A stretch of 64,000 nt of DNA from an uncultured Pseudomonadota bacterium (lineage in GTDB: Bacteria; Bdellovibrionota_B; Oligoflexia; Oligoflexales; CAIYRB01). How positions within the stretch are numbered: the stretch's first letter is position 1; the number at the start of each line of letters is the position of its first letter. Below the pieces are notes generated by a model, which worked only from the letters and a program-made list of their open reading frames with translations, was not told where the DNA came from and made no database searches. The stretch spans positions 1 to 64,000 of the forward strand of contig CAIWTN010000017.1 of NCBI GenBank assembly GCA_903915625.1. The letters are read 5' to 3'. The position numbers and the translations under genes were made by a program. This document shows positions 18,033 through 53,869 of this stretch, piece by piece.

Positions 18033-19319
<1,287 letters not shown>

Positions 19320-19326
19320 TCCCGCT

Positions 19327-20436
19327 GTGGCGCGCAACTCTATCGCCCCAATTTTCTGGATGCTGGCACTAGGCCCTACGCTTATTGCCAGCGATTGCGC
19401 GCAAAACCCCTCAAAATCAGTAAATTCAGTGGCGGCAGAGCAAACTGCCGCCACTTTCGAACTTGATGTCGCCCGTAGCCAAAGTGATCTCGCCGAACTG
19501 ACGAGACATCCCCATCCGCTAGGCTCAATTCGCCAGCGCGAGGTAGCCAGTTGGCTCGTGTCTAGACTGACTAGCGAGGGCATTCGCGCAGTTAAGGAAG
19601 ATTTTAATGCTGTGACGCCAAATCCAGCAACTCAGCGCACAAGCGAGAATACACCCCTTACCGTCAATCTGATCGGCCACAACATATATGCCATGGATGT
19701 CGGAAGACTTAATCCGCCATGCGTCGTCGCTCTAGCATCACACTACGATTCAAAAGATATTGCCGGGGTTAAATATCTTGGGGCGAACGATAGCGGATCG
19801 TCGACTGCAGTCCTTTTACAACTCCTCACTCACATTAAGAAGCATAGTGTTTACCATCAAATGACCTGTGGCTTTGTAGGCTGGTTTTTTGATGGAGAAG
19901 AGTCCGTGTTAGCAAACTGGACAGACGGCCAACTATCCCATCCGTCGAGAATGATCGACCATACTTATGGTAGTCGAATGCTCGCCTCCAAGCTAATACC
20001 CTGCATGTTCAGCGGCAAGCCGTCGAGTTGCCTGCCAGCCGAAAATGGTCGAAATACAGGGCCAGCTGTGGCTGCTGTAATCCTCTTGGACATGATCGGC
20101 TCACCCGAGCTTAAACTATCCCGCGATCTCCAGTCATCACCAGAGTTACAAAGAATCGCGCAAAGAGGAGCTGCGCTATTAGGACTTCCAGAAATTTTTA
20201 CTGAACAAGCTGCTAGCATCGAGGATGATCACAGGCCGTTCCGCGCCCTAGGTATTCCAGCCATAGACCTGATCGACTTTCAGCACCTTAAGCACTGGCA
20301 CAAGCCTAGCGACGATGTGGACACACTTTCACCAGCAAGCCTAAATATTGCTGGACATATAGCTCTTTACGTTGCATCTAGCCTCGCCAATCCAGCTGAC
20401 CCAAAGCACCCCACCAAAAAAATTAATAATCAATAA
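19327..20436 (+). CDS. Animal-type glutaminyl-peptide cyclotransferase (M28 family), likely exported
   Basis: ASHYDSKD...GANDSGSSTAVLLQLL, FDGEES, YGSRMLASKL, LLDMIGS, DDHRPFRALGIPAIDLIDF, HWHKPSDD. Start placed at GTG 19327, after the eno stop. Confidence 0.8.
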   Translation: MARNSIAPIFWMLALGPTLIASDCAQNPSKSVNSVAAEQTAATFELDVARSQSDLAELTRHPHPLGSIRQREVASWLVSRLTSEGIRAVKEDFNAVTPNPATQRTSENTPLTVNLIGHNIYAMDVGRLNPPCVVALASHYDSKDIAGVKYLGANDSGSSTAVLLQLLTHIKKHSVYHQMTCGFVGWFFDGEESVLANWTDGQLSHPSRMIDHTYGSRMLASKLIPCMFSGKPSSCLPAENGRNTGPAVAAVILLDMIGSPELKLSRDLQSSPELQRIAQRGAALLGLPEIFTEQAASIEDDHRPFRALGIPAIDLIDFQHLKHWHKPSDDVDTLSPASLNIAGHIALYVASSLANPADPKHPTKKINNQ

Positions 20437-20505: not shown

Positions 20506-21036
20506 TTGCGTTTAGGAGTCATAGTCATGCTGACTAGCACGGTGGATTTCGGAAATCTAACTATCGATATCCAACAAACTGCAAATGAAGTCGTCTATAA
20601 ATTCGTTGGCGAGGTTGACGAACATTTTCGGCAAAAAGACGTGCCCAGAGTCAAGAAGGCGAACATCACCTTCGTCCTGGAGGACATCGCCACATTCAAC
20701 TCCTGTGGTATTCGCGAATGGATTTACTTGGTCCGTGATATTAGCGAGCTTGGGGCGTTGAAATTTACCAAATGTTCAGTAGCAATGATCGATCAGATTA
20801 ATATGGTCCCGGACTCTCTCGGCAAAGGGACTGTTGATTCATTTTTCGCCCCCTACTACTGCAACTGTGGTGGCGAAGTAAATCGCCTGATCAATGTCGG
20901 AGATTGCCTACCTCTCTTACTTAGGAAAAATGCTCCTGAGTTTAAATGCGAAGAATGCGGCCACAAACTCGAGTTTGATGCTTTAGAAGAAAGTTACTTT
21001 CTGTTTGCTGAAGCGGCACTACCAGAAGCTTCCTAG
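20506..21036 (+). CDS. STAS-like domain protein with a CxC...CxxC zinc ribbon
   Basis: ITFVLEDIATFNSCGIREWIYL (STAS strand-helix); CNCGGE ... CEECGH. Paralogous to 53390-53869. Confidence 0.75.
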   Translation: MRLGVIVMLTSTVDFGNLTIDIQQTANEVVYKFVGEVDEHFRQKDVPRVKKANITFVLEDIATFNSCGIREWIYLVRDISELGALKFTKCSVAMIDQINMVPDSLGKGTVDSFFAPYYCNCGGEVNRLINVGDCLPLLLRKNAPEFKCEECGHKLEFDALEESYFLFAEAALPEAS

Positions 21037-21088: not shown

Positions 21089-22498
21089 ATGGGCATGGAT
21101 GCTCTGACGGCTTCAGCGTTTACTGCTTTAGCCAGAACACAACTCCCTGATCTGCACAGAAAGTTAGCTGCCTTAGCCAAGCTTCCAGTAAGCAAACGGG
21201 AAGCCGACTCGGAACTCGCTCAAGCCATCAGCGCTGTTCAGGCCTCGTTTTTTCGACTAAATGAATGGATTAGCGGCCACAGCGCTGGCACCACTTCAGA
21301 TCACTTAACCCAAAACGAGATTAAACTGGAGCATTCCCAAGCGGAGCTCACAAAGAATGCGGACTATGAAGACGAGTCGAACGTTGCGACCAATAAATCC
21401 CAATTAGACTCCCTCACCTCTCTGGCCGCTGAGCTCGTGTGCGACCGAACAAGATTTAGCAGTATCGAGGAGGATATTCGCAGCATAATCCCGCGCAACA
21501 TCGCAAGTACTTTGGCTGAAGCCATTCAACAACTAGACCGTCACACTAAACAAATGCGTGACACTGTCATGAAAATCAGGATGGTTCCACTCAGCCATGC
21601 ATTCAGCAGATTACCTACAATGGTTCGGGAATTAAGCGCCCAGCTGGGGAAGGATATAGAACTTCAATTCATCGGAGAAAGTACTGTGCTCGACAAAACT
21701 ATTGTCGAACAAATTGAAGACCCACTCATCCGACTGATCCAGAATTCCTGTAAGCAGGGAATTGAGACTCCGGACACGAGACAAAAGGTAGGCAAACCTT
21801 CAGCAGGACTAATAAAAATATCCGTGCGACAAGAGGGCAATTATATTCTCATCGTCATCAATGATGACGGACAGGCGCAACGCGATGTTGACATGGACAT
21901 CGTGCAAAGCCAAATATCAAAACTCCAGGGCACTTTGGAGCTAGATTCAGCACAGGCCCATGGCACCACTGTAACCATCAAGCTTCCGTTAACTCTAGCA
22001 ATGGCTCAAAGCCTACTTGTAGAATCCGCGGGTGAGCTCTTCGCCATTCCGATGGGTTCAGTCATCGAGTCAAAGCGTATCACTCCTGAAGAAATCCAAG
22101 TCAACGGCAACACACACTTCATCCAACAATACGATTTCAAGATTCCAGTGATTTATCTTCACGAAGCTTTCAAACTAGATTCTAAAAATGAACTTTCCTG
22201 GTACTCAAAAAATCAAAACCAAAAGAATCAAATTCGATTGCATGACAAGATCGTAGCACGCCGTGAGGACCGCCTGTATGTCGTAATTATAGGTTCAGGC
22301 GAGCAAAGCTTCGGCCTTATCGTAGACCAGGTTTTATACCAACAAGAGATCGCAATTAAATCACTTGGCCCCATACTGCACACTCTACCCTGTATCGCTG
22401 GCGGATTTATTTCTGGCAATGGTGAGGTCGTATTAGTACTCGACCTCGAACAGATTGAATCACGATTTATATCACCCGTAAGGAGAAGGGCCGCATGA
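21089..22498 (+). CDS. CheA-like protein with degenerate HPt and ATPase regions plus a C-terminal CheW-like domain
   Basis: RDTVMKIRMVPLSHAFSRLPTMVRELSAQLGKDIEL, LDKTIVEQIEDPLIRLIQNSCKQGIE, GTTVTIKLPLTLAM, then a P5 domain. The ATP-lid segment is missing. Confidence 0.85.
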   Translation: MGMDALTASAFTALARTQLPDLHRKLAALAKLPVSKREADSELAQAISAVQASFFRLNEWISGHSAGTTSDHLTQNEIKLEHSQAELTKNADYEDESNVATNKSQLDSLTSLAAELVCDRTRFSSIEEDIRSIIPRNIASTLAEAIQQLDRHTKQMRDTVMKIRMVPLSHAFSRLPTMVRELSAQLGKDIELQFIGESTVLDKTIVEQIEDPLIRLIQNSCKQGIETPDTRQKVGKPSAGLIKISVRQEGNYILIVINDDGQAQRDVDMDIVQSQISKLQGTLELDSAQAHGTTVTIKLPLTLAMAQSLLVESAGELFAIPMGSVIESKRITPEEIQVNGNTHFIQQYDFKIPVIYLHEAFKLDSKNELSWYSKNQNQKNQIRLHDKIVARREDRLYVVIIGSGEQSFGLIVDQVLYQQEIAIKSLGPILHTLPCIAGGFISGNGEVVLVLDLEQIESRFISPVRRRAA

Positions 22499-23052
22499 CT
22501 CTCGACCTTAGCAACCGCAGCGATTCATTCGACTCTGCCAATAGCCAGAGCGAGCAACAAACACTAATATCTAATGGCGCTCTTAAAACGGAGCTCGAAG
22601 TCGAGAACTATAAGTTTTTTAGCTTCTTTATCCATGACACTGAGTACTTATTACCAATAGCAAATGTCGAGGAAGTCACTAATTTGCCATCAATTTCTTT
22701 CTTGCCTAATGCAAACAGATTCTTAGATGGCGCATTTCATCTGCGCGGAAGTATACTGCCGGCAATCAACATGAGGAAAATTTCTGGATCACCAAGAGGC
22801 GAGCCTTCGCCTGAAAGCCGCCTCATAGTGGTCCGTGAGGCTGGACTCGATTTCGGGTTGATAGTCGATAGAATTAATCATGTGGTCACCCTATCTGCAG
22901 ACCATATAGAGCGCCAAACTCAATCTAGCTACCCAAATAGCGAGAATTTTTGCAGCCAAAAACTCAAAAACGGCAACCGATTTACAGGTATTATAGATCT
23001 CAGCAAATTATTAACGCTGATAACCGGCGAAACTAATCTAGACCTTTCATAA
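22495..23052 (+). CDS. CheW-like protein
   Basis: FFIHDTEYLLPIANVEEVTNLP, FHLRGSILPAINMRKI, RLIVVREAGLDFGLIVDRINHVVTL. Overlaps the CheA-like gene by 4 bp. Confidence 0.82.
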   Translation: MTLDLSNRSDSFDSANSQSEQQTLISNGALKTELEVENYKFFSFFIHDTEYLLPIANVEEVTNLPSISFLPNANRFLDGAFHLRGSILPAINMRKISGSPRGEPSPESRLIVVREAGLDFGLIVDRINHVVTLSADHIERQTQSSYPNSENFCSQKLKNGNRFTGIIDLSKLLTLITGETNLDLS

Positions 23053-23148: not shown

Positions 23149-23925
23149 TTGAAGCGATCGATCTTCAATCAAAAGGGCGGCGTCGGCAAAACTTCTATCA
23201 CCTGTAACCTTGCCGCTGCCTTTGCCAAGGCTGGTCGGAAGGTCTTAGTCGTAGACTTAGATTCTCAATCAAATAGCACCCAGTACCTACTGGGACCATT
23301 AGCTAAAGAAGTGACGAGTACAATTGCTGACTTTTTTGAATCAACACTCAGCTTCAAACTCTTTGGAGATTCATTAAAACAAGCCCTCTACAAAACAAGC
23401 TTCGATAACCTCTGGTTAATTCCAGCCGAGCGCGGACTCTCTGAGCTACAACAAAAGCTCGAAGGTCGATATAAGATCTTTAAATTAAGGGACGCAATTG
23501 ACGATCTAGTCAAAGATTTAGGATTCGACGACGTGTTTTTTGACACACCACCGGCGTTGAATTTTTATAGCATGAGTGCACTAATGGCATCTGACCGAGT
23601 GCTCATCCCCTTCGACTGTGACGCGTTTAGCGGAGAGGCTTTACTTCAAGTGATGGAAGTCATTGAAGAAGTGGCCTCAGATCACCAGCCGGATTTATAC
23701 GCCGAAGGAGTGATTATAAACCACTTCCAAGCGCAAGCGAAGCTACCTCTTGAAGCAATTGAGAGCCTGCGGAGCAAGGGATTTCCAGTACTCGAACCGT
23801 ACCTTTCCACTTCAATCGTGATGCGAGAGAGCCACGCAGCACATATGCCCCTAGTGCATTTTCGCCCAAAGCACAAACTATCTGATGAGTTTAGCAACCT
23901 AGCTGGGCATCTTATCAACCACTAA
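23149..23925 (+). CDS. ParA/MinD-family ATPase without an adjacent ParB
   Basis: FNQKGGVGKTSITCNLAAAFAKAGRKVLVVDLDSQSNST, DVFFDTPPAL. TTG start. Confidence 0.9.
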   Translation: MKRSIFNQKGGVGKTSITCNLAAAFAKAGRKVLVVDLDSQSNSTQYLLGPLAKEVTSTIADFFESTLSFKLFGDSLKQALYKTSFDNLWLIPAERGLSELQQKLEGRYKIFKLRDAIDDLVKDLGFDDVFFDTPPALNFYSMSALMASDRVLIPFDCDAFSGEALLQVMEVIEEVASDHQPDLYAEGVIINHFQAQAKLPLEAIESLRSKGFPVLEPYLSTSIVMRESHAAHMPLVHFRPKHKLSDEFSNLAGHLINH

Positions 23926-23939
23926 GCAAGGCACCTAGA

Positions 23940-23972
23940 TAGTTTCTGGCGCTCAAAGCGCGCTAGAAACTA
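23940..23972. terminator. Hairpin between convergent genes, possible terminator
   Basis: TAGTTTCT-gGCGC-tcaaa-GCGCgct-AGAAACTA, overlapping the stop codon of the minus-strand gene; AT-rich sequence follows on the + strand. Confidence 0.5.
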
Positions 23973-26900
23973 GATATTTAATTTTGTCACGAATTCAATT
24001 AACGCCTTGGCATACGGTGACCTTTGATAAATTTCACTATGCTTATGCAGATTCGGCACCAATAAATCCTTATCGAGAATTGATTCGAAGAGGCCGATCA
24101 CATCCAAAGTCTCAGCTATCTGCATGCGGTAAATATGTGCTCGCATCGACTCCCATAACTGCAGTACTTGATCTTCGCTCGGCATTCCTATTTTTTCGTG
24201 TATAGCTCTAACCGGCCTAAGATCAAAATCGCGCAGATATTTATTAATGCCATCAGATGAACTGAGCTTCATCTTTAGCTTTGAGAAGCCCTGTTTACTA
24301 AAAATCTGATGCAACGAACCAATAACTGGCAAGAAATCCCTTACAGGATCAAGTGCCAGCGGCACATAGTAATGGATCCTAACAGACCATATCAGACCGA
24401 TTATACGATGAAACAGATGACTAGACGGCGTCTTTCGATAGTGGGAGCTATCGACATATAAAGTACGCCGCAAGCCATCATAGAATATTTCTGCACCAAG
24501 ACCCGGCAAATCGTATGCTGTGTACTTCGCGACTCGGACTCGCTCTGCATAATGGTGTAAACCTACCGTGCGTAAGATGCCACTCTGCCAGTCAAGTGGC
24601 TTACGCATCTGCTGAATCATCGACTCCGTTAAATTCAATTTCTTATTAAGATAAGTTTGAGAGAATCTTGATGAGTTTATTCGCACCAGTAAAGGTGCCA
24701 TCGCAATCACCAATTTATGCAAACTTGAATTGAGCCCTGGCGTATTCAGACGCTGAGGGAACCTTTCTTTACCCGACAAGGGATATCCATACTCATCAGG
24801 ATTTCTCCAGACTCTCCAATGCCAATTGCTCAATCTTTCGCAGTTGCCTGCCACAAGTGCAACACTCTGTATCGCTAGATGCTTTTCAATTTCACTTGCA
24901 AATGCTTGCTGCAATAGTCGGCCAGTAAGATCAGCATTGAAATCACCTTTTATGACTGCTGCCCGCCAGTCAGCAGCATCATCAGCAGCATCGACATTGA
25001 CTCCAAAGCCCTCTCGCAAAGTATTGTCGACCTGGACAGTATCTATGACATTGCGATCAGTGGACTCATTTCCATCAGCTACCTCGAACGAAGTACTCTG
25101 ATTCATAAGCATAGTTCCGTCAGCACCATCACCAGAATCTAAAGCAGTCTTAATAGGTGGGATAGGTGGAATAATGACACCTGGTGCCGGCGGAAAAATC
25201 ATATTGCCAAGTGTCAGCGCCTGGGTGGTCGTTTCTTCGCTTAGATCCGCCGAAAATCCAGCGACCACAATTGGCGGCACAGCTCTGGGACTAAGACCAC
25301 TCAGCACATCCGCGCCCAAATTAAACTCCATAACGTCTGCCGAGGGGCCAGTTTTTCCATTTAATTGACCATTGCTGGATAGACCGACCTGCAAGATTTC
25401 GTCACCACCTAGGTTCATTGAAGACTCGGCAGAGTCTTCAACGTCATCAATATCTTCGCTATCGAGATCTATAACATTGGCCGCAAACGGATTGTCATCT
25501 TTACTAACTTTTTTAGTGGATAAGATCTGACCTTTTGGAGCGACTGTCGATGCGGCATCTTCATGTTGCACGTCAGCTCTATCTTCAACGGAAAGATCTA
25601 GTCCACCGGCCGGTTCCAAGTCTAGGCGCAGAATATCACTACCACCCATCGACCCTGAACTTGGAGGAACTTCGTCCGCGATATCCAATTTAAATTCTAC
25701 TACTTCCCCACCACTGAAGGATTTCGGCACAGGAGCAAAAATCCCGACCGGTGATGGTTCGACTAGGCTCGAATCACGTGCAATATTTGGTACGACAAAT
25801 CCAGCAAAGTCACCGGAAACTGCCTTTAAATCAACATTCGCGGATTCCTCTTTTGAAGTAAAATCCACATCCTGTAGTCCTGCAGAAACAGCGAGTCCAA
25901 TATCGATCGCGGGGGCAGAAATTTCTTGTGGCACTCCATTATCTGAATCTGGACGAAGAGATGACTCCTCCTTCTTAGCTAAATCGATACTTTTCTCTGC
26001 AGACTTAACCGGCGTACGAGGGAGCGCCGTGGCCCCATGTACTAAAATTTCCTTCTCCAGATTACGCAACTCTAATTGCATCGACTCGATAGTAAGCGGG
26101 AATGATTTCAATGGACGCTGATCGAGGCGAAGCTTAGGCAGAATGGCACGCAAATGAGTTAAGCGTTCCGTAGGGGCACCAAATTCGAGCAAGAGAAAGT
26201 AAAGCGGCATCCAAGTACGACTATTACTTGGATCAGCGGCGTAGACCTCCGAATATATCGCCAAAGCCTTGCGCCTGGTTTCATCCTGGTCAAACAACAT
26301 ACTTGCATAAACTAACATTAATTCTTGCTTACTCGTTGGCCCAATGCGATCACCGATATTGTGATCTAAGGCAGCCTTGTAGCAATCAAGCAGCACATGA
26401 CGCATCTCCCCCCGCTCGATTAAAATAGTGGTCTCAGATAAATACGCTTTCATCTTTGACTTGTTTGCTACACAAGCAAGACCGCGCCACCATTGGTCAA
26501 CCACTTTTTCTGCGTCAAGCTCAACAATTGCTGCCTTAAGAGTAACTTTGTAGATCTCACTCGATACAAGGCCGTTATTAATCAAGGCACCCGCTAATTG
26601 TCCAGCCTGCTGCCATCTACCTTTTGAAAAAGACTTATCTACGTGCTTCTGGAGTATCCGCTGCACCGCAACAGGATCCTCTCCAATTTTCAATAAACGC
26701 TCTGCATTTCTAGTCAAAGTCTCAATATCTACCGTAGATGCGACATCCTGCAAATACTCACCAAGATGTTGCTTTTCGCGCTCCACATCATTAGTTTCCG
26801 CAGCTAACTTAGCGAGCACATGATGAATTTTATGTGGTTCGTCGCTAAAGCGAGCTGAGGCACTAAACGCTAGGCGAGCTCGCGCACGATCCTTCATCTT

Positions 26901-29900
26901 GTGCCAGAAGATTTGACCAAGTTGGTCTAGTAGCGCAAACTTCTGCTGCCTATTTTCTTCAAATTCCGCCTGCTTCTGCAATGCCTTAGCGAGCAACTTC
27001 CAATGACCAGTACGCTCTACAAGTATTCTAAGTTCCTGCAATTCATCAGGAGTACAAGCTACGAGTGTGCAGACTCTAGCCACCATTTTTTCGGTCGCTA
27101 CTTCTTGATTCAACCTCTTGGCATATAAAGCTGCGGCAGTTCTCGCATGACTCACAGCGACGTGTATCGTTGTCGCCTTAAACGACATCAACTCATGGTA
27201 GATGGCCAACTCCTGGTCCAACCCCCTCAGTAATTTTATAATATCTCGTTCGGCGAGCTCAGCTGTCAGCCCTCGTTTAAGCAGCTCCCTAACGAAGAAA
27301 AGTAAATACTTTAAATCCGGCGATTCTTTCAAAGCAGAAACAGCTTCGTTAAGAACGATTGTTTGATCATCAACTATAGGCAACATTTGCGAATAAATAC
27401 TGCCCATGAGCTCGTAACGACGAACATTATCTAAATCAAATAGTGACTGTATAGCCTCACGCATCCACTGCAATCGTTGCATCGATGTCAGCTTTTTCAG
27501 CTCACCAATTGCGGCCATTAAACGCCCAATTGCATCGACCTGATTTGCTTGATGGTAAACTTGAAATCTTTTTTTCAAAGCAATATCAGCAGATAAATCG
27601 AATGCGTAAACTCTTAGGGCCAGATTATCTCGTTGTAAATCTGTCAACTCAGCGGGCGTTGTCAAGAGCTCGAGAATTAGAGACTGCTGATCTGCTGGCG
27701 ATACCTGCTGCAGACGCAATTCAAACGCTTGAACTAACGATCTATAGTCCTTCTGCTGTGATAAGTACTCTGTGAGAAACGCAAAGCCACTCGCATCTAT
27801 CCAGCCTTCCTGGTTAGCTGCACGCAGATGCCGAATAGCGCCAACATCATCACCCAGCCGATCCCTAAAAACCTCAGCTAATCGACATAGAAATTCCCCG
27901 CGACGGCGTCCAGACTGAACCGCTGGAATTTTCGCTATCAGCCTCGCACTGAGGTCCGACCAATCAATATCAACATCGTTCCAGCTAAACAAAAGGTCTA
28001 GCTCCTGCGTTGCAATCGTACTCGTCGCAAGCAGACGGAGATACAATTCTAATGCTCGCTTCGGCTCTCTCACTGAACCACGATATAGGCTCACTAGTTC
28101 ATCAAAAATGGGCTTTAAATATTCACTCTTCCCATTCTGCTCAAATACCGCGAACTCAGCTTCAAGAATACGGGCCAGTGACAAGTGATTTGCGCCCTGC
28201 CTATAGATGTGCTCAAGCTCACGCAACGTCTCAAGATCAGAAACATCGTATTCTATTGCCATTTCATAGCGAGTCGCCGCCAGATCTGGCCTATGGAGAT
28301 GATGACACCAAATACGGCCAATTGTTGCTTCTAAACAGCGCTTTTCGGCAGCACTCAGATTTAGGTTCCGATCCTTGAGCAAACTATCGGACACCTGGAT
28401 CGCCTCTTCGTAGCGTTCACGCTCCACGAGTATGTCAGCTATGAGCAATGCAGCTGCCACTAAGCCTCGATCAAGTTTCAAAGCCTTCTGCGCTAACTGT
28501 ATAGCATCGTCGCCACTGATCCCTTGTAGTCGACGGAGTTCAGCCAATCTCAAATGAATTTTAGCTAGTTCGATACGCCGTCTCTCGGCACCTATCAGAC
28601 GGTGCAGCAGACTTATTTCCGCGTCGATACGATTATCCAGTCTAGCCAATTCTATTAATTTTTTTAGCACCCTAGGTACGTCGCCACGTTTCTCAAGAAC
28701 TCTGTAATAGCAATCTGCAGCTTTGTCGTGATTTTCCTGAGCCCACACATCGCCTAGCAATTCTGGCAATACTAAATCAAAGCATTGCAAATTGTCCGCA
28801 CCACGAATCTCACTCATGAGCAGCGCACCAAGTTTCGATAAATGCTCGAGTGATGCTGACTGATTTTTGCTCAGTAAGGCTAGATGAATCGAATAAGAGA
28901 GGAACAGCTTTTGATTAGGCTCAAGATCCAAAGCCCTACCCATGATCGCATCGTCGTTGAGTTCACCGCACCCAACAAGCCCAAGTAATGAAAGGCGGCG
29001 CCACAGATAGAGAGTGTCACGTTCTGTCGCACAACGGTCGACTAGCTGCTTCCAGGCTTGGTTCAACTTTCCAGTAGTGATCGCCTTGTCGAGATCACGA
29101 CATTGTTCTAGGCGCTCTCTCGACTCCAAAACTTCCACCGGCACAAACGTCACTTCGGTAAAACCAGCAGGTATCTCCATGTCATCAGACAAAAGTCGAA
29201 CACTTAACCCTTCATCGCCAGCGAAAACACTTGGGCTGAATTGACCACGTGCCTGCGATAATTCCGCTTCCAGCTTCCGAAGCATCGCCGGTGTTGCCCC
29301 GAGGCTAGCCAAATGAACCAACACGGGCGCCATCAGAGGAAAGCGCATTTCATGAATCGAGGTCGGCACGCACTCTTTGTGGCTAATTTCGCCCCATGAT
29401 CTTAAACCCAGAGCCTCTGCTAAGAATCTCAGAGGCACGGTTACAAAGACGAAGGGAAGGAAGCCAAACCCAAAGATATCGGAAAGTACTAGCTGGCCTT
29501 CAGTGCCTTCGGCGAGGATACGTACCTTAAATCCACCTACCCCGTTTGTGTGCTTGGATAGTTGGCGCGACACATCGTCGCCTTGAGTTCCTTGATCGCG
29601 ACGAAGAGCACGGTTGAATTCGAAAAGGCACCATATCGATCCGTCTTTCTGAAAAACGAAGTCACTGGTGGTACGGGCCCCGAAGTATTTTTTGGTCAAA
29701 TTGCTCAAATTGCGCAAAATAGCTGTCTTATCGAGGTCCATCATCAAATTGTGAACGGCCAACCCACTCTTACGAGATGCCAGCTCGCTACCAAGGACAC
29801 GCCAAGGATTGACGACTCGACTGGACGCCGGCTTGTTTTGAAGACTTTCCGGAACTTCTTTGGGATCAACCAAAGACTCGCTCCGCAGTCTCCACAAGAC

Positions 29901-29978
29901 CCACGTTTGACGAGACTCACTCACGAAGCCGAGCTTCGTCAGCAGTGCATCAATAGGCTTTTCGCTCTCCTTGCTCAC
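23970..29978 (-). CDS. 2002-aa TPR-rich protein with an acidic/disordered linker and a distinct C-terminal domain
   Basis: Single 6-kb ORF. Multiple TPR-like helical pairs (e.g. ALELYLRLLATSTI, KALAIYSEVYAADPSNSRTWMPLYFLL), then low-complexity D/E/S/P/G and a conserved-looking end. Confidence 0.75.
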   Translation of the reverse strand: MSKESEKPIDALLTKLGFVSESRQTWVLWRLRSESLVDPKEVPESLQNKPASSRVVNPWRVLGSELASRKSGLAVHNLMMDLDKTAILRNLSNLTKKYFGARTTSDFVFQKDGSIWCLFEFNRALRRDQGTQGDDVSRQLSKHTNGVGGFKVRILAEGTEGQLVLSDIFGFGFLPFVFVTVPLRFLAEALGLRSWGEISHKECVPTSIHEMRFPLMAPVLVHLASLGATPAMLRKLEAELSQARGQFSPSVFAGDEGLSVRLLSDDMEIPAGFTEVTFVPVEVLESRERLEQCRDLDKAITTGKLNQAWKQLVDRCATERDTLYLWRRLSLLGLVGCGELNDDAIMGRALDLEPNQKLFLSYSIHLALLSKNQSASLEHLSKLGALLMSEIRGADNLQCFDLVLPELLGDVWAQENHDKAADCYYRVLEKRGDVPRVLKKLIELARLDNRIDAEISLLHRLIGAERRRIELAKIHLRLAELRRLQGISGDDAIQLAQKALKLDRGLVAAALLIADILVERERYEEAIQVSDSLLKDRNLNLSAAEKRCLEATIGRIWCHHLHRPDLAATRYEMAIEYDVSDLETLRELEHIYRQGANHLSLARILEAEFAVFEQNGKSEYLKPIFDELVSLYRGSVREPKRALELYLRLLATSTIATQELDLLFSWNDVDIDWSDLSARLIAKIPAVQSGRRRGEFLCRLAEVFRDRLGDDVGAIRHLRAANQEGWIDASGFAFLTEYLSQQKDYRSLVQAFELRLQQVSPADQQSLILELLTTPAELTDLQRDNLALRVYAFDLSADIALKKRFQVYHQANQVDAIGRLMAAIGELKKLTSMQRLQWMREAIQSLFDLDNVRRYELMGSIYSQMLPIVDDQTIVLNEAVSALKESPDLKYLLFFVRELLKRGLTAELAERDIIKLLRGLDQELAIYHELMSFKATTIHVAVSHARTAAALYAKRLNQEVATEKMVARVCTLVACTPDELQELRILVERTGHWKLLAKALQKQAEFEENRQQKFALLDQLGQIFWHKMKDRARARLAFSASARFSDEPHKIHHVLAKLAAETNDVEREKQHLGEYLQDVASTVDIETLTRNAERLLKIGEDPVAVQRILQKHVDKSFSKGRWQQAGQLAGALINNGLVSSEIYKVTLKAAIVELDAEKVVDQWWRGLACVANKSKMKAYLSETTILIERGEMRHVLLDCYKAALDHNIGDRIGPTSKQELMLVYASMLFDQDETRRKALAIYSEVYAADPSNSRTWMPLYFLLLEFGAPTERLTHLRAILPKLRLDQRPLKSFPLTIESMQLELRNLEKEILVHGATALPRTPVKSAEKSIDLAKKEESSLRPDSDNGVPQEISAPAIDIGLAVSAGLQDVDFTSKEESANVDLKAVSGDFAGFVVPNIARDSSLVEPSPVGIFAPVPKSFSGGEVVEFKLDIADEVPPSSGSMGGSDILRLDLEPAGGLDLSVEDRADVQHEDAASTVAPKGQILSTKKVSKDDNPFAANVIDLDSEDIDDVEDSAESSMNLGGDEILQVGLSSNGQLNGKTGPSADVMEFNLGADVLSGLSPRAVPPIVVAGFSADLSEETTTQALTLGNMIFPPAPGVIIPPIPPIKTALDSGDGADGTMLMNQSTSFEVADGNESTDRNVIDTVQVDNTLREGFGVNVDAADDAADWRAAVIKGDFNADLTGRLLQQAFASEIEKHLAIQSVALVAGNCERLSNWHWRVWRNPDEYGYPLSGKERFPQRLNTPGLNSSLHKLVIAMAPLLVRINSSRFSQTYLNKKLNLTESMIQQMRKPLDWQSGILRTVGLHHYAERVRVAKYTAYDLPGLGAEIFYDGLRRTLYVDSSHYRKTPSSHLFHRIIGLIWSVRIHYYVPLALDPVRDFLPVIGSLHQIFSKQGFSKLKMKLSSSDGINKYLRDFDLRPVRAIHEKIGMPSEDQVLQLWESMRAHIYRMQIAETLDVIGLFESILDKDLLVPNLHKHSEIYQRSPYAKALIEFVTKLNI

Positions 29979-53389: not shown

Positions 53390-53869
53390 ATGGGTATTAC
53401 ACTCAACGTAGAAAAAAAAGGTCAGTGGGATCAGCTAGTATACGTGGGTCCTATCAATGAGGATTCCGAAGTACATCTGAAGCCAATGATCACCGCCCTA
53501 GGCACCAACGTCATCATCAACTTCCGTAAAGTGGAGTCCGTGAACAGTTGTGGTGTTCGCGCCTGGATAAACTTCATGCGTGAGGCAGAGAAGGGCCGTA
53601 AGGTTATCTTCGAAGAGTGCACTCCGGAAATCGTAAGTCAGATCAACATGATCCCCAACTTCCGCGGGTCCGCCCAAGTACGATCAGTGTATGCATCCTA
53701 CGCTTGCGGCAAATGCGACCACCAAACTTGGGTACTATTCGAAGAAGGCCGGAATTTACCGTCGTCTGGAACGGCTGAAATTCCGCCTCAAAAGTGCGAG
53801 AAATGCGGCACGATTATGGAGATGGAAGAGCTGGAAGATGAGTTTTTTGCGTGGTTGGATGCAGCATAA
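53390..53869 (+). CDS. STAS-like domain protein with CxxC...CxxC zinc ribbon
   Basis: VIINFRKVESVNSCGVRAWINFM, CGKCD ... CEKCG. Paralogue of 20506-21036. Confidence 0.77.
   Translation: MGITLNVEKKGQWDQLVYVGPINEDSEVHLKPMITALGTNVIINFRKVESVNSCGVRAWINFMREAEKGRKVIFEECTPEIVSQINMIPNFRGSAQVRSVYASYACGKCDHQTWVLFEEGRNLPSSGTAEIPPQKCEKCGTIMEMEELEDEFFAWLDAA

Follow-up and report, generated by a model that had tools for sequence, protein, structure and literature searches.

A CheA homologue without Hpt domain and ATP lid, under purifying selection in Oligoflexales

Judged from its sequence, the 469-residue product of a gene in an Oligoflexales (Bdellovibrionota) MAG belongs to the CheA family but cannot act as a kinase. 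The gene is located in a 64,000-nucleotide stretch of this genome (G000), hereafter called the window, and it is under purifying selection after the loss of catalytic parts, yet less constrained than a working CheA. We consider it reasonably probable that the protein is a pseudokinase descended from a complete CheA at the same locus and kept as a P5/CheW scaffold or array modulator.

The window locus and its CheA

All the best solved relatives of the protein in a PDB search are CheAs (to E=5e-49), and synteny and similarity to the complete CheAs of the same genus support its descent from that family. As in the chemosensory kinase CheA, its domains are in the order P3-P4-P5, a CheW is encoded next to it, and it is orthologous to the complete CheAs found at the same locus; it differs from them by the absence of the Hpt and the ATP lid and by dead N and G2 boxes (Table 1).

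The gene order is enolase, M28 peptidase, STAS-like protein, CheA, CheW and ParA, followed by a convergent gene for a giant TPR protein; this order holds within the genus and, in part, throughout Oligoflexales. The STAS-like gene is the most conserved partner in the locus, syntenic in complete and degenerate loci alike, and its product has no Pfam match. The parA gene is syntenic in the window genus, in G020/G026 and in G023, and among PDB structures its product matched general ParA/Soj relatives only.

Table 1. Features of the CheA locus (window coordinates).
Feature	Position	Strand	Basis
STAS-like protein, Cys-rich tail	20506..21036	+	Motif similarity; alternative start possibly ATG at 20527
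CheA pseudokinase, whole gene, 469 aa	21089..22498	+	ORF and translation; Pfam domains; PDB CheA match
N-terminal ~62-aa domain, two predicted helices (5-30, 41-61), not Hpt	21089..21274	+	Alignment, omega, model helices, hhalign
Variable linker	21275..21388	+	
P3 dimerisation helices, eroded, 18/31 invariant columns kept	21389..21577	+	Pfam, orthologue alignment
P4 GHKL core without lid	21578..21997	+	Structure model compared with 1i58_B
Degenerate N-box RLIQNSCKQGIE	21731..21766	+	H215R, R218Q, D222K, H223Q; N219 kept
Junction of 46-residue (138-nt) in-frame deletion of F-box and ATP lid	21874..21875	+	Alignment; same junction in G005
Degenerate G2 box AQRDVDMD (from SGRGVGMD)	21875..21898	+	Orthologue alignment
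P5 CheW-like domain, retained, 38/48 invariant columns	21998..22495	+	Pfam, orthologue alignment
CheW gene	22495..23052	+	Pfam CheW, 82.6 bits; start overlaps CheA stop by 4 nt (ATGA)
Orphan ParA-family ATPase	23149..23925	+	Pfam; PDB relatives
Terminator-like hairpin 3' of parA	23940..23972	+	Such sites in total no more than in shuffles

Several features of the neighbouring genes were recorded. The Cys-rich tail of the STAS-like protein is zinc-ribbon-like, and its Ser66, which we take to be the position of the SpoIIAA-type phosphosite, is invariant in 7/7 aligned proteins. A second STAS-like protein encoded in the window (53390-53869) is its paralogue (E 1e-24), and such paralogues are numerous across Bdellovibrionota. 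The M28 peptidase ORF (19204-20436) overlaps the enolase gene as listed; its start is probably at 19273, because the orthologue in the related genome G005 (387 aa) begins later. The 2002-residue TPR protein (23970-29978, minus strand), whose gene converges on the operon and keeps its position throughout the genus, has a variable middle part and a conserved C-terminal region of ~350 residues. In Bdellovibrionales, a related STAS gene is often found directly before the gene of a CheA-like kinase (L101, L103, L107, L110, L145, L153 and others), which suggests an old pairing between STAS proteins and CheA-type kinases; those kinases that were checked have a PAS-Hpt-HATPase architecture and no CheW domain. 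In family f7, a REC-PilZ gene follows the STAS gene in place of cheA (L163:1504-2256, L164:5920-6684), and a link of this neighbourhood to c-di-GMP is possible.

Loss of the catalytic parts

In complete orthologues the Hpt is located between the N-terminal domain and P3. The original prediction stated that the N-terminal ~90 residues of the window protein have no HxxKG phosphotransfer motif, and indeed neither this motif nor a Pfam Hpt match was found in the protein. The operon in the window contains no Hpt gene either, which rules out a split-off Hpt. Pfam recognizes the dimerisation domain (H-kinase_dim, residues 102-163, 36.2 bits for a cut-off of 23) and P5 (CheW, residues 308-456, 66 bits). 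The HATPase_c match at residues 210-302 is barely significant, with 27.0 bits for a cut-off of 26.4, compared with 61-71 bits in the orthologues that keep the lid.

Relative to the orthologue of genome G001, exactly 46 residues (GLPADIIRRKAIEKGLITDDMVLSKRDTFNLIFEPGFSTAEKITNI) are gone between residues 262 and 263, and in complete orthologues this segment spans the last part of G1, the F-box and the lid. A gap of ~40-50 residues comprising the F-box, the lid and the GRGVGMD segment had been proposed; the first two are indeed gone, but the third is degenerate rather than deleted, with Gln, Asp and Asp in place of its three Gly residues. Degeneracy of the N-box had been predicted as well, and the box is altered, although the more damaging change is H215R, four residues upstream of the retained Asn219. 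Arg215 occupies the position of the T. maritima CheA His residue that we take to be number 405, from the alignment with the PDB match and the known numbering. The full complement of HATPase features (N-box His/Asn, G1, F-box/lid and G2) is not present in the window protein. As the Hpt, the lid, the equivalent of His405 and the G2 glycines are all absent, ATP binding and autophosphorylation appear very unlikely.

The dimerisation and CheW-like domains, both described as intact in the original prediction, fare differently. P5 is well kept, but P3 has changes in 13 of the 31 columns that are invariant in complete orthologues, the poorest retention among the remaining domains.

An assembly error or frameshift was ruled out, because the same deletion junction is present in G005, a species assembled independently. 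The junction DNA was found in only 2 of the 58 genomes of the class, namely the window genome and G005.

In an AlphaFold model of the window protein, built with 11 sequences, P4 alone is predicted with confidence (10-residue mean pLDDT of 73-93, residues 161-300), with P3 and P5 modelled at low to moderate confidence. The modelled GHKL core is at 1.4 A from T. maritima P4 (1i58_B), minus the lid. Structure prediction had been proposed as a check, and it yielded a lidless GHKL domain; searches of the protein sequence and of the operon revealed no hidden Hpt. The P4 fold is thus predicted to remain, and the nucleotide clamp to be lost.

Orthologues and selection at the locus

The G005 genome matches contig JAPLFY010000035.1 (Lake Pavin), the nearest named relative contig. 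In relatives, complete CheAs at the same locus have 638 to 914 residues, and the N-terminal domain of ~62 residues is common to the complete and degenerate CheAs of the window locus. The CheAs of G001, G002, G006 and G007 (881-914 residues) harbour an Hpt (AAHTLKG) and the RNxxDHG and GRGVGMD motifs, with repeats such as SDDEAMRLLAEM between the N-terminal domain and the Hpt. One to four copies of similar motifs are present in most complete CheAs (L034 7259-9976, minus strand; L039, L043, L172, L170), and they resemble the N-terminus of the FliM of the same genome, LSQSEVDALLSAV. On this resemblance, they are possibly CheY-docking motifs that replace P2. No such repeats were found in the CheAs of G003, G004, G000 and G005. 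The G003 CheA (638 residues) has the Hpt and ATPase motifs; that of G004 (518 residues; L037 6497-8053, minus strand) is devoid of Hpt and keeps GRGVGLD and RNACEHG, and no FliM was found in the G004 genome, which is 91% complete. In G000 and G005, both the Hpt and the lid are missing. In a tree of neighbouring genes, G003 groups with G004 (100/100), and these two with G000 and G005 (99/96). Unless the Hpt was regained in G003, this topology requires two or more losses of it within the genus.

The G000 and G005 proteins both have 469 residues and share 89% identity, and all differences between them postdate the shared deletion. Between these two species, omega (dN/dS) for the whole gene is 0.24 (95% bootstrap interval 0.16-0.35). 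It is 0.07 for the N-terminal domain (95% interval 0-0.32), 0.39 for P3, with an interval that includes 1, 0.17 for P4 and 0.27 for P5, the intervals of the latter two overlapping. By comparison, the values are 0.013 for the STAS-like gene, 0 for parA, 0.31 for cheW and 0.06 for the active CheA paralogue (C87 in G000, C54 in G005). No stop codon or frameshift was found in the gene in the two species, at a dS of 0.23. Simulated neutral evolution gave a mean of 8.9 stops and 63% identity, with no stop-free run in 1000, compared with the observed 0 stops and 89%. The omega values and the simulation rule out an unconstrained pseudogene.

The same CheA has degraded independently in genus g15 (G020, G026 and G029), which forms one clade (100/99). 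In the gene that follows the STAS gene there, Pfam recognizes only P5 (CheW, 61-76 bits), P3-P4 being unrecognizable. The g15 protein nevertheless aligns collinearly with the window protein from end to end, including the N-terminal domain (hhalign probability 99.8), although the G029 protein is devoid of that domain. A neighbouring cheW was not found at the g15 loci. Omega between G020 and G026 is 0.26 overall and 0.13 for P5, with no stop or frameshift at a dS of 0.66. The structure model of the G020 remnant has a mean pLDDT of 36, and we base no claim on it. Most other loci of Oligoflexales harbour complete CheAs, and in G008, G012, G014 and G018 no CheA is encoded beside the STAS gene; G041 was excluded from the latter group, its STAS gene being at a contig end.

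Kinase motifs are present in two further CheAs of the window genome: C87 has two Hpts and a receiver domain, and C124 has a partial Hpt match. FliM and 4 MCP matches were found in this genome as well. G005 has one other CheA, C54. Free-standing Hpt genes are present in most of the relatives examined, irrespective of Hpt loss.

Possible roles of a CheA without kinase activity

The original proposal, that the role of the protein is structural or allosteric and not that of a kinase, fits the catalytic losses, the purifying selection and the predicted GHKL fold; the positive role itself is one that we infer. In our favoured reading, the GHKL core would fold without binding ATP, so that the protein would act through its protein-binding parts. 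Together with the translationally coupled CheW, P5 would probably take CheA positions in chemosensory arrays without phosphorylating anything, or else the protein might belong to a small STAS/CheW/ParA complex. It may dilute, tune or position arrays that signal through the remaining complete CheA, C87, and the conserved N-terminal domain may link it to one or more partners from the locus. In support of a scaffold, the cheA-cheW overlap and most of the P5 columns are kept, P5 is the best-kept part in the independent g15 lineage, and the genome encodes other CheAs with Hpt and lid, MCPs and FliM. Against it, the omega of the gene is four times that of the active paralogue, and constraint on the coupled cheW is likewise loose, a pattern that a weakened function would produce. 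Erosion among the domains still present is strongest in P3, which a CheA needs in order to dimerise, and the lack of CheA beside STAS in some relatives indicates that the role is dispensable over time.

The raised omega values of both genes, the erosion of P3 and the four CheA-less loci would also suit a transitional relic, in which the CheA function is lost and the ORF is slowly decaying towards loss under weak residual selection, for instance against misfolding or for cheW translation. We deem this unlikely, given the lack of stops and frameshifts in both pairs of species, omega values far under 1 and the nearly frozen N-terminal domain. A less probable option still is that the GHKL core without its lid now serves as a binding module, for instance for STAS or a receiver, in a complex that reports to another pathway. 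A precedent is the Caulobacter pseudokinase DivL, in which the histidine-kinase fold is kept for a regulatory role besides kinase output (PMC4211667), although DivL is not a CheA and senses the phosphorylation state of a response regulator. Constraint on P4 equals or exceeds that on P5, P4 is confidently modelled, the STAS gene precedes cheA, and Bdellovibrionales STAS genes also adjoin genes for Hpt-HATPase kinases; however, the overlapping P4 and P5 intervals and the retention of P5 rather than P3-P4 in g15 argue against such repurposing. Free-standing Hpt genes and a complete CheA in the genome might point to one half of a split kinase, phosphorylating in trans either together with an independent Hpt or as part of a heterodimer like R. 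sphaeroides CheA3/CheA4, and the Hpt-less G004 CheA with its intact ATPase motifs could work so, but this is highly improbable for the window protein, which cannot be the kinase half without lid, catalytic His and G2 glycines, nor the acceptor half without Hpt, and which has no same-operon Hpt protein paired with an intact kinase half.

The accessible part of a survey of 13,673 CheAs describes Hpt, dimerisation, HATPase and CheW domains in every CheA and attributes missing Hpts to contig ends or split genes (PMC10542144). It also describes the R. sphaeroides pair, in which CheA3 has a live Hpt and a kinase domain that misses helices and ATP residues, and CheA4 lacks the Hpt (PMC10542144). As portrayed there, CheA4 resembles the G004 CheA, and each half of the pair keeps one catalytic function and complements the other, whereas the window protein has neither. 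The window CheA is away from a contig end, unsplit, common to two species and under selection, and a selected CheA with neither Hpt nor usable ATPase is outside the description given in the accessible part of the survey.

Non-kinase array proteins are known in other bacteria. Vibrio ParP, a CheW-like non-kinase with a ParA-like ATPase partner, takes, according to a model, the place of some CheA-P5 within arrays (PMC5706961). The putative array role of the window protein, whose locus has a ParA-family gene after cheW, would be similar, and we claim no homology to ParP beyond the CheW fold. ParP is not known to contain the P3 and P4 of a CheA. Myxococcus FrzB, a divergent CheW, lost an interaction region, and an array component thereby became a non-transducing modulator of clusters (PMC6952110); FrzB is a CheW, whereas the window protein is a CheA. 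We found no CheA pseudokinase in the open-access literature, which also gave nothing directly applicable on Oligoflexales chemotaxis or E. coli active-site mutants.

There is in our view an even chance that the CheA of this conserved locus in Oligoflexales turned more than once, independently, from a kinase into a dead array component or scaffold, in the window lineage and in g15, with intermediates in living species. The visible stages would then be loss of the linker with the docking motifs (G003), loss of the Hpt as well (G004), further loss of the lid (window genome and G005), and a state in which P5 is the sole recognizable part (G020, G026 and G029). If such multiple conversion is true, CheA is a recurrent source of non-kinase array proteins. 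From a dead yet selected CheA and the separate decay in relatives, it follows that bacteria can probably keep a CheA for some purpose other than kinase activity. This would show that the CheA scaffold has a selectable value apart from catalysis, and the orthologue series makes the order of losses and the value of each domain testable.
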